From Opitutales bacterium (lineage in GTDB: Bacteria; Verrucomicrobiota; Verrucomicrobiia; Opitutales; JABSRG01), in NCBI GenBank assembly GCA_028280845.1, contig JANQKZ010000014.1:1-60671 (forward strand): a DNA stretch of 60,671 bases, in the 5' to 3' direction. The translations under genes and the position numbers were made by a program. This document shows, one piece after another, positions 54,083 through 60,647 of this stretch (position 1 is the stretch's first letter; each line of letters opens with the position of its first letter). The notes under the pieces were generated by a model. That model ran no database searches. It saw nothing but the letters and a program-made list of their open reading frames with translations, and was not told where the DNA came from.

Positions 54083-55453
54083 TTAGCGGGAATAATTCTT
54101 CCATTGATGTTCGTAGGCGGCCATTTCGGTTTCATGACCGAGATCTCCGCAATAGAGCATCCACTCTTTGAGTTGTTGATCGAGGTGCAGGATGACTTCC
54201 CGGTAGGCGGGGTCGTCAGCCAGGTTGTGCATCTCAAAGGGATCAACCGACCGGTCGTAGAGCTCGATTGGGGGGCGCGTGATATACCCTAAAAAGAGCT
54301 TGTCGGCCTCTTTGTTTTTCCAGCCTACTTCCCGCCAGCTATTAAAGAATCCATCCCCGTAGCGGGTAAGGTGATTCTCAAAGAGCATGTAGGGATGCAG
54401 GTTCCAGATATAGGTATAGCGCGCGTCCCGGACGCACCGGACGGCAAAGTGATCCCCTCCCCAAGGCTCACCCCGGGTGGTTTGCATAGAAAACAGGTAA
54501 TCCCGGTGGTGATCGGTTTGCCCGGTAAGCACCTCGAGAAAGCTATCCCCATCCAAATGTTTTTGGACCTCACCGCCTGCGATATCAATCATCGTGGGAA
54601 GTACGTCCGTGTATTCGACAAAAGCATAGGCCTTGCTGTCCGCTTCTACTTTTCCTGGCCAGCGGACGATAAAGGCCGTATGCACTCCCGCTTCGTAACA
54701 GGTCCATTTTGCGTAGGGGAAGCTGGCTCCTTGCTCACTCGTATAAATGAATACCGTATGGTCGAGGATCCCCTTTTCCTCCAGGACCCTCAGGGTTTCT
54801 CCCACCTCCCAATCCGAATAGCTTACCTCCCCCAAATACCGGGAGTAGTAATCCCGGGTTTCGGGGGTATCGATCCAGTTGGGGGGAAGTTTCAGAGATT
54901 CGGGGGGGTAGGCGGTGGCATCCCCTTTATCCCATCGATAATGGGGTTCCGTTGTTCCAATGATCAGCACGAAGGGGGTCTCTCCCACCTCCATGATAAA
55001 CTCCTCCATCCTTTCAAAATTGATGACTTTGTCGTCCGTAATATACTCAAAAGGAAAGGCTTCAGGGGGCTGGATGTGTCGCTTTCCCATGTAAGCCGTG
55101 CGGTACCCCTCCTTCCGCAAATAATGAGGCAAGGACTGAACCCCCGGACGGACAAAGCCTGTTTGCGGATAGGCACCATTCCTCACCGGGTAAAGTCCCG
55201 TCAGCAGGTTATGGCGGGTTGGCCCGCAAACCGCAACCGTCTGATAGGCCCGCATGAATTGCATTCCCTCATCGGCTATTCGGTCAATATTTGGCGTGGA
55301 GGCCTGCCCACCATAACACCCCAAATCCCAATAGGTCAGGTCGTCGGCGATAAAGAGAACGATATTTGGTTTTTCAGCCTGGCTGGAAAAAGGGGGTAGG
55401 GAGAAAAGGATAAGAAAGAGGAATTTCCTTAGTAACACAGGTTGAGTATGCAT
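54083..55453 (-). CDS. Secreted sulfamidase-like sulfatase (CGPTR)
   Basis: A 456-residue S1 sulfatase resembling the N-sulfoglucosamine sulfohydrolase branch. FIADDLTYWDLGCYGGQ, formylglycine motif VCGPTRHNLLTG (Cys76), MGKRHIQPPEAFPFEY, GTTEPHYRWDKGD and YTSEQGASFPYAKWTCYEAG, where the sulfatase SDNG motif is replaced by SEQG as in that branch. Signal peptide ~1-27. It is closely similar in its motifs to the sulfatase at 56628, so the two are duplicates. It is divergent from the LolA-like gene. Confidence 0.92.
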   Translation of the reverse strand: MHTQPVLLRKFLFLILFSLPPFSSQAEKPNIVLFIADDLTYWDLGCYGGQASTPNIDRIADEGMQFMRAYQTVAVCGPTRHNLLTGLYPVRNGAYPQTGFVRPGVQSLPHYLRKEGYRTAYMGKRHIQPPEAFPFEYITDDKVINFERMEEFIMEVGETPFVLIIGTTEPHYRWDKGDATAYPPESLKLPPNWIDTPETRDYYSRYLGEVSYSDWEVGETLRVLEEKGILDHTVFIYTSEQGASFPYAKWTCYEAGVHTAFIVRWPGKVEADSKAYAFVEYTDVLPTMIDIAGGEVQKHLDGDSFLEVLTGQTDHHRDYLFSMQTTRGEPWGGDHFAVRCVRDARYTYIWNLHPYMLFENHLTRYGDGFFNSWREVGWKNKEADKLFLGYITRPPIELYDRSVDPFEMHNLADDPAYREVILHLDQQLKEWMLYCGDLGHETEMAAYEHQWKNYSR

Positions 55454-55667
55454 CGGTCATTGCCGGTGCGAAAGCTCGGCCTCACATTACGATAACGGGT
55501 GGGGGCAGGTTTTCTATTCTTGTTGAACTGGCGATAGGGGGCTGACCTGCGGGGATACTCCCAATCCCCCATCCAATGTCCCATATTTAAAGGTGAATTT
55601 GGTCACAGGATGTTACGAGTGGTTTGGGAGGTCATGCTATCCGCTTGCCTGAGAGGAGTTAAGGAAT

Positions 55668-56540
55668 ATGTTTAGCCATATGCGTCCATCCCCCATCTCT
55701 TTTCCCTGGTTCGTCCGTGGGGTTGCACTGATCCCTTCGGTTACCATGCTGTTTCTATTTTCCAACTGGGTCGAGGCCCAGACTGTGACAGGGGATGATG
55801 TGATTCGGCGGCACTTGGAATATCACGCGATCCGGTATGATCTGCTCTACTTCGAGATGACCCGGACGGTGGAGGGAGAAGACCGGCCCGCCAGTAAAAT
55901 CCTGGGAGCCTATCACTCCTTTGAGGATGGATCCCTCGGATATATGATCCGTGTCCTTACCCCGGAGGAGGTGCGCGGAGCGGGTGTATTGATGAAGGAC
56001 AACCTCACTGGGCCTCCGCAGCAGTATCTCTTTCTGCCTGAGTTCGAACGGACCCAGCGGATACGACGTGGGTCCGGGCCGATTTCCTTTTTGGGATCCG
56101 ACTTCACCTACGATGACCTGTTGAGGGAATTACCCTCTCACCAGAACTATCGCCGCCTGGATGACACGGTTGTGGATGAGATGCCGTGTTACGTGGTGAA
56201 GGCAACGGATCGGTTGACTAAGACCTGGAAGGCTTACCACCACCGCCTGCTTTATATTGCCCACAAGGATGCTCGGCTGCTGAAAGTCGAATTTTTCGAA
56301 GATGAGAATACCATAGAGAAAACCATGCGGTTTTCGGACTTCAAGCCGGCGGCGGACCTGCCCACCTTCATCAACCCGGAAACGATCGTGATGGAGACGC
56401 ATGCAACCCACTCCAAGACCACCCTGAAGGCCCTCGGGCTGGCGGCAGGGGTCGGGCTGAGTGAGGAATACTTCACTCCCAGGGCTCTCCAGACCTTTGA
56501 TCCGGAGGGGATCGAAAAGCTACTAGAGAAGTTAAAGTAG
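55668..56540 (+). CDS. LolA-like outer-membrane lipoprotein-sorting family protein
   Basis: A 290-residue exported beta-rich protein of the LolA-like (PF17131) group. An N-terminal hydrophobic segment (~20-38) precedes HLEYHAIRYDLLYFEMTRTV, GGP-type loops (GPPQQYLFLPEFERTQRIRR), the hallmark ISFLGSDFTYDDLL and a C-terminal half with AYHHRLLYIAHKDARLLKVEFF. Such proteins bind or shuttle lipids or lipoproteins across the periplasm and often sit beside RND-type exporters. Here the neighbours are sulfatases, so the link is unclear. AGGAG stands about 8 nt before the ATG. Confidence 0.8.
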   Translation: MFSHMRPSPISFPWFVRGVALIPSVTMLFLFSNWVEAQTVTGDDVIRRHLEYHAIRYDLLYFEMTRTVEGEDRPASKILGAYHSFEDGSLGYMIRVLTPEEVRGAGVLMKDNLTGPPQQYLFLPEFERTQRIRRGSGPISFLGSDFTYDDLLRELPSHQNYRRLDDTVVDEMPCYVVKATDRLTKTWKAYHHRLLYIAHKDARLLKVEFFEDENTIEKTMRFSDFKPAADLPTFINPETIVMETHATHSKTTLKALGLAAGVGLSEEYFTPRALQTFDPEGIEKLLEKLK

Positions 56541-56627
56541 GGCTAGCCCAAGCCTGTCTTGAATTACGATCCTACAAGTGGGGAGTGGTCTTATTCCGTA
56601 ACTTACCCTACGGATAAGCTCTTCGTG

Positions 56628-58046
56628 ATGCAATATATGTCCTCTATCCTCGTATCCGTAGCTTGTGTTTTCCTGACCACTAGCTCCCTGTTTTCAGAGG
56701 AGAATTCCGAGCGCCCAAACATCATGGTCTACATTGCAGATGATATGACCTGGCGGGATTGTGAGCCCTATGGCAATCCTGATATCATCACACCGAATAT
56801 CCAGCGGTTGGCAGATGAAGGAGTCTGCTTCGACAACATGTTTACCGCCACGGCGATGTGTGCGCCGACCCGACAACAGCTTTATACGGGACTCTTTCCG
56901 GCTCGGAGTGGAGCCTACCCGAATCATTCCAAAGTTTACCCCGGGGTAAAGAGCCTGGGACACCACTTTGGGGGTGCCGGGTACCGTGTGGCATTAATTG
57001 GGAAGCGGCATTACGGACCTGAGGAGGCCTTCCCCTTTGAATACCTGGGAGGTCGTGCGCATGATAACGGTAAGGATGGGCCGGAGAAACGACTTGAAGC
57101 AATTCTTCCTATCATAAACGGGGATGATCCTTTCTTCCTCATTGTGGCCAATAACCAGCCGCATACCCCATGGAACCGCGGAGACCCCTCGCCGTATGAT
57201 CCAGATGCCTTGACGATTCCGGATTATATGATCGACTGCGAGGCCACACGGAAGGGGCTGCCTCCCTATTACGGGGAAATTACCTATATGGATGCCAACC
57301 TGGGCCGGTGCCTGGATATGCTGGAGGCTGCCGGGAAGGCGGAAAACACGATCGTCATTTTTACAAGCGAGCAGGGGTATACCTGGCCTTTTGGGAAGTG
57401 GACCTGTTATGATTTGGGTTTGAAAACCGCCTTCATCGCAAGGTGGCCCGGCAAGATTGCACCAGGGACTCGAAGTGTGGCGATGACTCAATATGTGGAT
57501 GTGGTTCCCACCCTTTTGGAGGCGGTTGGGATCGCCCCCCACCAGCTTGATGTTGGAATACCCGATACCTTTGGTTATCGTGGGTTTGACGGAGCCAGTT
57601 TTTTGGAGGTGCTGCTCGGGCAGGAAGATACCCATCGGGACCATGTGTTCGGCATCCACACGACCCGCGGTATTTATCACGGCTCCGAAAGCTATCCGAT
57701 CCGGGCTATTCGGTCGGGACGGTACAAGTACATTCGCAATGCAAGCTTTGAATCGGCCTTTGCCAACCTGGTAACGATCAATCCAAAGTCCATGTATTAT
57801 TCGTGGCTGGACGCTACCGTGGGAACGCCAAAGGAGGCGTGGGTGCGTTCCTACGAACGGCGTCCCTTTGAAGAGTTGTACGATCTGGAAGCTGACCCTT
57901 GGGAGCAGCGGAACCTGATAGATTCCAAAGCCCTCGCCTCGGTTCGGGATGATCTGCGCCGGCGCCTGAACCAATGGATGCTCCAGCAGGGTGATCTGGA
58001 AGTGGCTACGGAGATGCAGGCCGAGGAACGGATGGGGAGGAAGTAG
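56628..58046 (+). CDS. Secreted sulfamidase-like sulfatase (CAPTR)
   Basis: A 472-residue S1 sulfatase, paralog of the one at 54083. YIADDMTWRDCEPYGNPD, formylglycine motif MCAPTRQQLYTG (Cys78), GKRHYGPEEAFPFEY, NNQPHTPWNRGDPSPY and FTSEQGYTWPFGKWTCYDLG with the SEQG variant. The ATG at 56628 (or 56637) fits the signal peptide (MSSILVSVACVFLTTSSLF); the frame opens earlier without a signal-like start. Probably acts on the same glycan as its paralog, at a different position or chain end. Confidence 0.92.
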   Translation: MQYMSSILVSVACVFLTTSSLFSEENSERPNIMVYIADDMTWRDCEPYGNPDIITPNIQRLADEGVCFDNMFTATAMCAPTRQQLYTGLFPARSGAYPNHSKVYPGVKSLGHHFGGAGYRVALIGKRHYGPEEAFPFEYLGGRAHDNGKDGPEKRLEAILPIINGDDPFFLIVANNQPHTPWNRGDPSPYDPDALTIPDYMIDCEATRKGLPPYYGEITYMDANLGRCLDMLEAAGKAENTIVIFTSEQGYTWPFGKWTCYDLGLKTAFIARWPGKIAPGTRSVAMTQYVDVVPTLLEAVGIAPHQLDVGIPDTFGYRGFDGASFLEVLLGQEDTHRDHVFGIHTTRGIYHGSESYPIRAIRSGRYKYIRNASFESAFANLVTINPKSMYYSWLDATVGTPKEAWVRSYERRPFEELYDLEADPWEQRNLIDSKALASVRDDLRRRLNQWMLQQGDLEVATEMQAEERMGRK

Positions 58047-58109
58047 GCTGGAGGCCAGTTTTTTTTAGTTTTCTGTTAGGTCTTTTTTTGGGGTTGACTA
58101 AAATCCTTT

Positions 58110-58134
58110 ATATCGTTTTTTTACGATATATCGT
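58110..58134. promoter_or_regulatory. ArsR-type operator with overlapping palindromes
   Basis: ATATCGT-TTTTTT-ACGATAT (58110-58129) is a perfect inverted repeat and overlaps the perfect 12-bp palindrome ACGATATATCGT (58123-58134), so three half-sites share one region 10-34 nt before the ArsR start. A -35-like TTGACT lies at 58094-58099. Confidence 0.65.
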
Positions 58135-58143
58135 ATTTTAAAG

Positions 58144-58488
58144 ATGGAAATAAAATCAAATTATGCAGTGAAGGAGGAGCGGTTGGCCGGGCAGTTGAAG
58201 GCGATGGCGCATCCGGCGCGATTGGCGATCATGCGAGAGTTGGCGTCAAATCCACAGGCGGGGTGTACGCAGCTGATGGAGCATCTACCACTGGGGCAGG
58301 CGACAGTGTCTCAGCATTTGAAGGCGCTGAAGGAGGCGGGGATCATACGCGGGGAGGTAGAGGGCCGCCGGGTATGTTACTGCCTGGATCCGAAGGCCCT
58401 GGAAACACTCCATAGCCTGTTCCACCAGTTCATTACGGAGAGCTGTTGCTGCGGACCTGACAGTGGGTGCGAGTGCAGTTGTTGTTAG
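58144..58488 (+). CDS. ArsR/SmtB-family repressor with Cys-rich tail
   Basis: A 114-residue winged-helix repressor: LAGQLKAMAHPARLAIMREL, HTH with PLGQATVSQHLKALKEAGII (~50-70) and the wing EVEGRRVCYCLD. The classical ELCVCDL alpha-3 metal motif is absent. The C terminus instead is CCCGPDSGCECSCC, seven Cys in 14 residues, a likely binding site for a soft metal or metalloid. The gene is preceded by its probable operator and followed after 73 nt by a Cys-rich peptide gene. Metal release of repression is inferred from the family. Confidence 0.88.
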   Translation: MEIKSNYAVKEERLAGQLKAMAHPARLAIMRELASNPQAGCTQLMEHLPLGQATVSQHLKALKEAGIIRGEVEGRRVCYCLDPKALETLHSLFHQFITESCCCGPDSGCECSCC

Positions 58489-58561
58489 TTTTCATCAGAG
58501 GAAAGGGAGTGCGCGGAGAATCCGGTCCCCGATCCTCGTCAACCAACGAAAGGAAACGACC

Positions 58562-58657
58562 ATGAACGAACCAGAAGTCCTCAAAGCACAGGCCTGTTGT
58601 TGTGGGTGTGACTGTGACTGCGGTGACAACTGCAGCTGCAGCAACGGTTGTTGCTAA
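58562..58657 (+). CDS. Metallothionein-like 31-residue peptide
   Basis: ATG at 58562, with AAGGA 9 nt upstream, opens a 31-codon frame: MNEPEVLKAQA then CCCGCDCDCGDNCSCSNGCC. Ten of 31 residues are Cys, there are no aromatic residues, and the spacing (CC, CxC, CxxxC) is typical of metallothioneins. A terminator hairpin follows at once. It is cotranscribed with the ArsR repressor, whose tail has a similar Cys pattern, so it probably buffers the metal sensed by that repressor. It is far shorter than known bacterial metallothioneins (about 50-60 residues), and I recognise no described family. Confidence 0.7.
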   Translation: MNEPEVLKAQACCCGCDCDCGDNCSCSNGCC

Positions 58658-58663
58658 CCTGAA

Positions 58664-58689
58664 ACCCGCCGGTCCTGCAGGCGGCGGGT
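58664..58689 (+). terminator. Terminator after the metallothionein-like gene
   Basis: ACCCGCCG pairs perfectly with CGGCGGGT across a 10-nt loop, followed by GGATTTT. Confidence 0.7.
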
Positions 58690-58760
58690 GGATTTTGAAA
58701 GAGGCTTGCAATTCCTTAGAAGAAGGGGAACGTGGAAGATTCTTTCATGTTCTTTCCATT

Positions 58761-60647
58761 ATGCACCGATACCTGATTCCTCTTCTCTCATACTCCCTTT
58801 TAACACTTTTCACCTTTGGGCAGGAAAGCAGTAAGCAGGTCGTGACCAATGTCGATGATCTGCCCCGGTTCACCTATGAATTAGACCTCTTGCCCTCTGA
58901 ATTGCTGACCGATGATGTAGCCTTTGAGGCGTGGGCCACTGAGGTGGAAGCGGACCTGGAAACCGTTCTCGCTCAATATGACATTCAGGATAAGCCGACC
59001 GTGCGTGGCTATCTGAACACCCTCCGGGATATTGCGCTCTGGAAAGGTGAATATGAGAAGGCCAAAGCGCTCACACTGGAAATTCGATCCCTGCAGGAAA
59101 AGCCAGCGGATAAACTGACTAGCGGGTTATCCGCGCTGACCCTTATCGAAACCATTGAAATGGAGGGCGAGCGGGCCGAAACCTTTAACAAGTCCTTCCG
59201 AGAGGCCTACGCTGCAAAAATCAATGAGCTCCCCTGGGATGTGGTTCAAGACAACATTGAACAGACCAAGGGCGGCTATGAGATGTACAGCGAAAACTTC
59301 TTTACCGGGATTGTGCAGACCAATTACGACCCGGGCGCGAAGGAGAGTAAGAGCATCAGCCAGGACCTGGCAGGCGGGATCATTAGCATACGTGTCTTGA
59401 TCGACCGATTCCTCCCGGTAAAAGACGAAATCATTGCTGTCACCGGTGGTTACATTGCGGCCAATCGGGTGGAGAAGGCAGATATCTGGGAAGCGCGCGA
59501 TGTGGATTTAACGGGTGAATCAGGATTACAAGATGTCATTGTCGGGGTTTGGGACAGCGGGGTGGATACGGCGATCTTCGAGAAGACCAAACAGCTCTGG
59601 ACCAATACGGGAGAGATTCCGGGCGACGGAATAGACAATGACGAGAACGGGTTTGTCGACGACGTGCATGGCTTTGCCCATGACCTCGAGGGACGGCGCA
59701 CCACGGGGGAGCTGTTCCCGCTGCCGGAGGAGATTGAGGCGAAACGGGATGACCTGGTTTACCTCTATAAAGGCCTGTCCGACCTGCAGGCGGCGGTCGA
59801 TTCCGATGCGGCCAGCGCCCTGAAGCAGCGCATGAGTCAAATTCAGCCGGAGGAGGTCGAGTCCTTCCTCCTGGATCTTAACTATTACGGGAATTATTCC
59901 CATGGAACTCATGTGGCCGGGATTGTGGCGAATGGAAATCCGGCGGCAAAGGTGCTCGTAGCCCGGATTACTTTTGATCATAAGAACATCCCCGATCCTC
60001 CACGCCTGGAGGAGGCTGTGCGCTTCCGGCGTGCGGCCTTCGAGGCAGTCGAGTATTTTAAGCAATCCGGCACACGCGTGGTGAATATGAGTTGGGGCGG
60101 ATCCAAGCAAGGTAATGAGATTGCCTATGAAATGAACGGCGAAGGGGATGATGCCGAAATGCGTTCTGAAATGGCCAAGATCCTTTTCGATATCGGGTAT
60201 GATGCACTGGTAGAGGCCATGGCGAGCGCGCCGGAGATTCTGTTTGTAGCCGCAGCGGGCAACAGCGATAACACAGTGGAATTTGATAAGGTCATTCCTT
60301 CCAGCATCGAGCTGCCAAATGTGCTCGTGGTGGGCGCAGTCGACCAGGCCGGTGAAGAAACCGGCTTTACCAGCTTTGGTAAAACCGTACTGGTTCATGC
60401 CAACGGGTTCGAGGTCGACAGTTACCTGCCGGGAGGGAGCCGCCTGCCGCTTTCCGGAACATCGATGGCTTCGCCCAATGTGGCCAACCTGGCGGCTAAG
60501 CTCCTGGCGGTCGATCCGTCCTTAAGCCCGGAGGCCGTGATTTCCCTCATTCTGCTGGGCGCTGAACGGAGCGAAGATGGGCGGCGTAACCTGATTCATC
60601 CAGCCCGGAGCATGGCTCTGTTACAGGTCAAAAACGGACTGCTTTAA
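58761..60647 (+). CDS. Secreted subtilase (S8 peptidase)
   Basis: A 628-residue exported serine protease. Signal peptide MHRYLIPLLSYSLLTLFTFG, a helical N-terminal region (~25-240) possibly acting as a propeptide, then catalytic Asp265 in GVWDSGVD, a calcium-type insert GDGIDNDENGFVDD, His381 in SHGTHVAGI, oxyanion Asn in AAAGNSDN and Ser568 in GTSMASPNVA. A ~60-residue insertion lies between Asp and His. The ATG at 58761 is set by the signal peptide; the longer frame from 58602 covers the metallothionein gene and terminator. It ends 24 nt before the window end. Confidence 0.92.
   Translation: MHRYLIPLLSYSLLTLFTFGQESSKQVVTNVDDLPRFTYELDLLPSELLTDDVAFEAWATEVEADLETVLAQYDIQDKPTVRGYLNTLRDIALWKGEYEKAKALTLEIRSLQEKPADKLTSGLSALTLIETIEMEGERAETFNKSFREAYAAKINELPWDVVQDNIEQTKGGYEMYSENFFTGIVQTNYDPGAKESKSISQDLAGGIISIRVLIDRFLPVKDEIIAVTGGYIAANRVEKADIWEARDVDLTGESGLQDVIVGVWDSGVDTAIFEKTKQLWTNTGEIPGDGIDNDENGFVDDVHGFAHDLEGRRTTGELFPLPEEIEAKRDDLVYLYKGLSDLQAAVDSDAASALKQRMSQIQPEEVESFLLDLNYYGNYSHGTHVAGIVANGNPAAKVLVARITFDHKNIPDPPRLEEAVRFRRAAFEAVEYFKQSGTRVVNMSWGGSKQGNEIAYEMNGEGDDAEMRSEMAKILFDIGYDALVEAMASAPEILFVAAAGNSDNTVEFDKVIPSSIELPNVLVVGAVDQAGEETGFTSFGKTVLVHANGFEVDSYLPGGSRLPLSGTSMASPNVANLAAKLLAVDPSLSPEAVISLILLGAERSEDGRRNLIHPARSMALLQVKNGLL

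Follow-up and report, generated by a model that had tools for sequence, protein, structure and literature searches.

We identified, in a 60,671-nt window (the whole stretch of DNA that was analysed), a compact locus in which a gene for an ArsR/SmtB repressor with a Cys-rich tail is followed by a frame for a 31-residue peptide containing ten Cys. From its sequence features, we consider it likely that this locus works as a mini-metallothionein unit, autoregulated and inducible by metal(loid)s. The sequence-only reading of this DNA had proposed a self-contained sense-and-buffer unit; support for that proposal comes from similar frames beside related ArsRs, from the operator form, from hairpins, and from the position of several of these frames in ars operons.

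Organization of the window locus

There is no doubt that the regulator has the ArsR fold: in an NCBIfam profile search it passed the cut-off of NF033788 (73.8 bits; cut-off, 55), and it also matched HTH_5 in Pfam. Direct reading of the gene bore out the Cys tail described earlier. The protein ends in ESCCCGPDSGCECSCC, and residues 101-114, its last 14, include seven Cys. When aligned by the Cys columns of 258 relatives, the protein retains the core cysteines C41, C78, C80, C113 and C114, carries A39 in place of a conserved core Cys, and has additional tail cysteines at C101, C102, C103, C109 and C111.

The peptide frame begins 73 nt after the arsR stop, opens with ATG behind a Shine-Dalgarno-like site, and encodes MNEPEVLKAQACCCGCDCDCGDNCSCSNGCC, in agreement with the composition first read from the DNA; it contains no His. 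The terminator placed after it in that reading corresponds to a hairpin followed by a modest T tract. Cys makes up 10 of the peptide's 31 residues, and the gene is located behind a predicted ArsR operator. Among ATG frames of 15-45 codons with at least six Cys, on both strands of the 60-kb window, this peptide stood alone. It had no match in Pfam or NCBIfam at E values up to 10, bacterial metallothionein profiles included, and none in the PDB; eight related peptides had no meaningful match in Pfam or NCBIfam, and Rfam returned nothing in the window. Two sulfatase-like genes (54083-58046) adjoin the unit on one side, and a subtilisin-like peptidase frame (about 58762-60647) lies behind it.

Features of the arsR-peptide locus, in window coordinates
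Feature	Position	Strand	Basis
-35-like hexamer TTGACT, putative arsR promoter	58094..58099	+	direct reading
ArsR operator (predicted), ATCGT-N6-ACGAT	58112..58127	.	recurrence upstream of related arsR; form of ArArsR footprint
Second palindrome ACGATATATCGT, 12 bp, overlapping the operator right arm	58123..58134	.	direct reading
arsR, ArsR/SmtB metalloregulator, 114 aa	58144..58488	+	NF033788 and HTH_5 profile matches
Shine-Dalgarno-like AAGGA ahead of peptide frame	58550..58554	+	direct reading
Cys-rich peptide, 31 aa, 10 Cys, proposed mini-metallothionein	58562..58657	+	ORF reading; analogous frames at 15 related loci
Terminator-like hairpin (58664-58689), then GGATTTT	58664..58696	+	hairpin, -16 kcal/mol

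Ahead of arsR, the overlapping palindromes reported earlier are real. The predicted operator reads ATCGT-TTTTTT-ACGAT, and an exact operator occurs at most 120 nt upstream of arsR in 75 of 166 related genes, where 0.2 would be expected. The spacing within this set is 6 only, with the exception of one other register at 13. The whole source genome contains four exact sites, a total at chance level; of these, only the window site lies shortly before an arsR, and the other three lie in or near unrelated genes, with no link to metal genes.

Relatives of the regulator and recurrence of the peptide

The nearest ArsRs are mostly from Bacteroidota and head arsenic operons in which arsR is followed by arsM, ACR3-like, DUF6428-like or arsC genes (several gene names were assigned by eye). 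Six Cys columns (CxC, CYC and a terminal CC) are kept in 222-242 of the 258 distinct relatives. This Cys layout places the window ArsR in the same branch as ArArsR, the proven As(III)/MAs(III) repressor of the Arsenicibacter rosenii arsRMC operon, which requires Cys41, Cys80 and Cys82 and whose DNase I footprint contains ATCGT-N6-GCGAT (PMC11868830). Both arsR genes are preceded by an operator of the form ATCGT-N6-(A/G)CGAT, and the window protein has counterparts of ArArsR Cys43, Cys80, Cys82, Cys107 and Cys108. In contrast to ArArsR, it has Ala at the essential Cys41 column and five extra tail cysteines, so that its three ligand positions read A39, C78 and C80 and the ArArsR set is incomplete; likewise, the ArArsR operon carries arsM and arsC, whereas the window operon carries the peptide instead. 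By analogy with ArArsR, the ancestral inducer of this branch would be As(III)/MAs(III). The window ArsR is, by its sequence, a relative of the ArArsR branch, with an inducer that is uncertain because one essential As ligand is replaced (Ala39). Loss of an essential ligand was not significantly enriched among Cys-tailed ArsRs (4/14 versus 33/244 others, p = 0.12). An arsenic lifestyle is not evident for the source organism, since a profile search of its genome found no ACR3 over the cut-off.

ArsR relatives are also present on plasmids, and a viral scan found three. In same-order genomes, six relatives (L007, L008, L011, L013, L015 and L017), most with the window-type operator, are followed by genes that look like CoA-disulfide-reductase-like oxidoreductases, which suggests that this ArsR group includes a branch for sulfur stress.

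A search with ArsR, followed by reading of the flanks for short Cys-rich frames, revealed that the window locus is one of a series: a comparable frame of 21-34 aa adjoins arsR in 16 of the 258 relatives, the 15 further loci including members of other phyla. The carriers belong to Rhodothermales, Saprospiraceae and Fibrobacteria, in addition to the source organism. At the Bacteroidetes locus L047, an ArsR ending in NCTCACCS is followed by the peptide MNAQENCTCCCCPCPDCGGGCCGD; its genome is taken to be from Rhodothermales because it belongs to the same order as G356, which carries the Salinivenus locus L025. The frame also lies downstream of arsR at L122, L123, L124, L132 and L150 (order of L047), L079 (Saprospiraceae), L216, L217 and L226, and upstream at L181, L186, L187, L190 and L045 (Fibrobacteria). 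Under strict thresholds, 10 downstream and 5 upstream frames were found, versus none in 1430 control windows drawn from the same loci; a loose threshold gave a frequency of 0.7% in shuffled sequence. Most downstream-frame loci have the operator form seen in the window, Shine-Dalgarno sites mostly precede the related frames, and a hairpin follows the peptide stop in 16/16 loci, with T runs evident in some only. L079 contains a second operator copy between arsR and the peptide. The pairing of arsR with such a peptide is thus not due to chance, and the short frame, whose lack of conservation in relatives the earlier reading had named among its refuting conditions, has counterparts beside related ArsRs.

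The peptides are alike in Cys richness and have no alignable common sequence; a single origin therefore cannot be concluded. Searches with the peptide alone returned nothing convincing in 86 same-order, 288 same-phylum and approximately 394 Bacteroidota-phylum genomes, although the first look may overlook sequences this short and divergent, and a plasmid search with one of the peptides gave no match. Weak matches were obtained at L022-L024, L106, L119 and L120; of these, L106, L119 and L120 looked like chance on inspection. Because the peptide was not found in the 86 same-order and 288 same-phylum genomes searched, the presence of the unit in the source organism looks patchy or horizontally acquired.

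Several of the related frames lie among arsenic genes. The gene order is arsR-pep-arsC at L123, arsR-pep-arsN2-arsM at L216, arsR-pep-arsN2-aquaporin at L217 and arsR-pep-arsN2-like at L226; it is pep-arsR-arsC at L181 and L190, with a gene similar by sequence at L186 and L187. At L045, a peptide gene next to arsR-aquaporin is served by an operator and a strong terminator of its own. The arsN2 genes of L216 and L217 exceed the NCBIfam cut-off; at peptide loci, matches to arsC, arsM and aquaporin are strong, yet below cut-off. In the window and at L121/L047, the unit stands alone, with neither enzyme nor pump in its operon.

The occurrence of the peptide was strongly associated with the Cys tail, defined as at least four Cys in the last 15 residues: an adjacent frame accompanied 10 of 14 Cys-tailed ArsRs versus 8 of 244 others (p = 1e-10), and among the latter eight, the cases at L261 and L287 look like chance. 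The association persisted after collapse to 114 clusters (p = 1e-5) and after removal of the three seed loci (p = 1e-9). Some of the ArsR queries were themselves Cys-tailed, which biases the search towards finding tails, not peptides. A tree built from the ArsR core requires ten changes for the peptide; these p values carry no tree correction because the tree has too few supported branches. The likeness of Cys patterns that the earlier reading saw between tail and peptide held for composition; at ten loci, however, tail DNA was not significantly closer to its own peptide than to those of other loci (p = 0.19), and an origin of the two by duplication was not supported.

Several further loci are worth recording. 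The ArsRs of L049, L076 and L086 have paired CC...CC tails and no adjacent Cys peptide; a VOC-family-like gene (ArsI-like by eye) lies behind arsR in L049 and L086. The L182 ArsR has a longer Cys-Pro tail (SCACPPGACACPPGSACCS) and an operator, and no Cys peptide was found nearby. At L145, L257, L261, L037 and L077, ArsM-like proteins encoded behind arsR have N-terminal stretches rich in Cys pairs and similar to some of the peptides, making the ArsM N-terminus a possible source of the mini-metallothionein.

Proposed mechanism and alternative explanations

We propose that an ArsR dimer would bind ATCGT-N6-ACGAT over its own promoter and repress both arsR and the peptide gene. Binding of a thiophilic metal or metalloid to the ArsR cysteines would release the dimer from DNA, and arsR and the peptide frame would then be transcribed as far as the terminator. 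The peptide would chelate the ion through its thiolates, and repression would resume on renewed ArsR binding. In outline, this would be a small-scale version of the SmtB/SmtA and BxmR/BmtA scheme. Repression and its relief by As(III) are taken here from the published relative ArArsR and from the ArsR/SmtB family; we infer translation of the peptide, its metal binding, its part in detoxification and a role for the tail. With respect to the missing As ligand (A39), either the Cys tail may supply a replacement, or a different soft metal (for example Cd, Cu(I), Pb, Hg or Zn) may have become the inducer.

Other explanations can account for parts of these data. A peptide that co-occurs with arsM, arsN2, arsC and aquaporin genes could be a metallochaperone, passing the metal(loid) to an efflux pump, ArsM or ArsN2 rather than storing it. 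We regard this as unlikely for a unit that, in the window and at L121/L047, has no enzyme or pump in its operon and whose source genome has no ACR3 over the cut-off. It is similarly unlikely that ArsR instead senses reactive sulfur or oxidative stress and that the peptide serves as a thiol buffer: same-order ArsRs with the same operator do precede CoA-disulfide-reductase-like pyridine nucleotide disulfide oxidoreductases, but the peptide-bearing relatives are located in arsenic operons, and the window ArsR retains two arsenic-branch features, the CYC motif and the terminal CC.

The frame might also be a regulatory leader, either a Cys-codon attenuator or a metal-sensing nascent peptide like CruR, with the hairpin as attenuator for the next gene. 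A short, Cys-codon-rich frame with a hairpin directly after it has the appropriate form, and at L181, L186, L187 and L190 the peptide and hairpin do lie ahead of arsR-arsC. However, the gene that follows the hairpin varies from locus to locus (in the window, the subtilisin-like peptidase frame; elsewhere, arsN2, arsC or genes for unrelated secreted proteins) and is convergent at L079, L122 and L150, which makes a leader improbable; in addition, the L045 peptide has its own operator and strong terminator, and the RAPP arrest motif is absent from the peptide. Finally, the frame could have arisen by chance within a spacer: it is very short, and searches found neither a same-order homolog nor a family match. 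We nevertheless judge this explanation highly improbable: the frame is the sole one of its kind in 60 kb, and frames like it recur by arsR, with hairpins, at 15 other loci and in 0/1430 control windows. The mini-metallothionein unit remains our preferred reading.

Relation to known systems and significance

The pairing of a repressor with a metallothionein is already known, operon form included. SmtB/SmtA of Synechococcus and BxmR/BmtA of Oscillatoria brevis likewise combine an ArsR/SmtB repressor with a Cys-rich metallothionein; BxmR and its metallothionein are described as forming an operon, and smtB-smtA as forming a divergon (PMC8790569). SmtA has 56 aa and uses both Cys and His as ligands (PMC12193353), whereas the window peptide has 31 aa, no His, and no Pfam or NCBIfam model. 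Unlike SmtB and BxmR, the window repressor belongs to the arsenic branch and has a Cys-rich tail. CruR (DUF2946), a copper-responsive upstream ORF that acts in cis via CXXC and RAPP motifs (PMC9426467), is similarly a small Cys-containing frame in a metal-regulated operon, but the window peptide has neither a DUF2946 Pfam match nor the RAPP motif. The metallothionein of Neurospora crassa has 26 residues (PMC4755600). Fungal copper thioneins are similar to the window peptide in length and Cys richness, the two traits by which we liken them; unlike it, they are eukaryotic and are not known to be paired with an ArsR. New here are the peptide's size and type, the absence of a curated family for it, its place in ars operons, and the link between tail and peptide.

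According to a 2025 paper, no intracellular-sequestration gene has so far been found in the ars operon (PMC12093948). The Cys-rich frames in ars operons, some of them directly under an ArsR operator, would supply such a gene. At 21-34 aa, they fall below usual gene-calling lengths and have no curated family model. We tentatively suggest, at somewhat less than even confidence, that mini-metallothioneins of this length form a scattered and previously unseen sequestration arm of bacterial ars regulons, often together with an ArsR whose C-terminal Cys tail serves as a metallothionein-like sensor of the ion and competes with the peptide for it. These loci are small and inexpensive systems in which to test how very short peptides buffer metals; they also bear on whether an ArsR can shift its metal site to a Cys tail.
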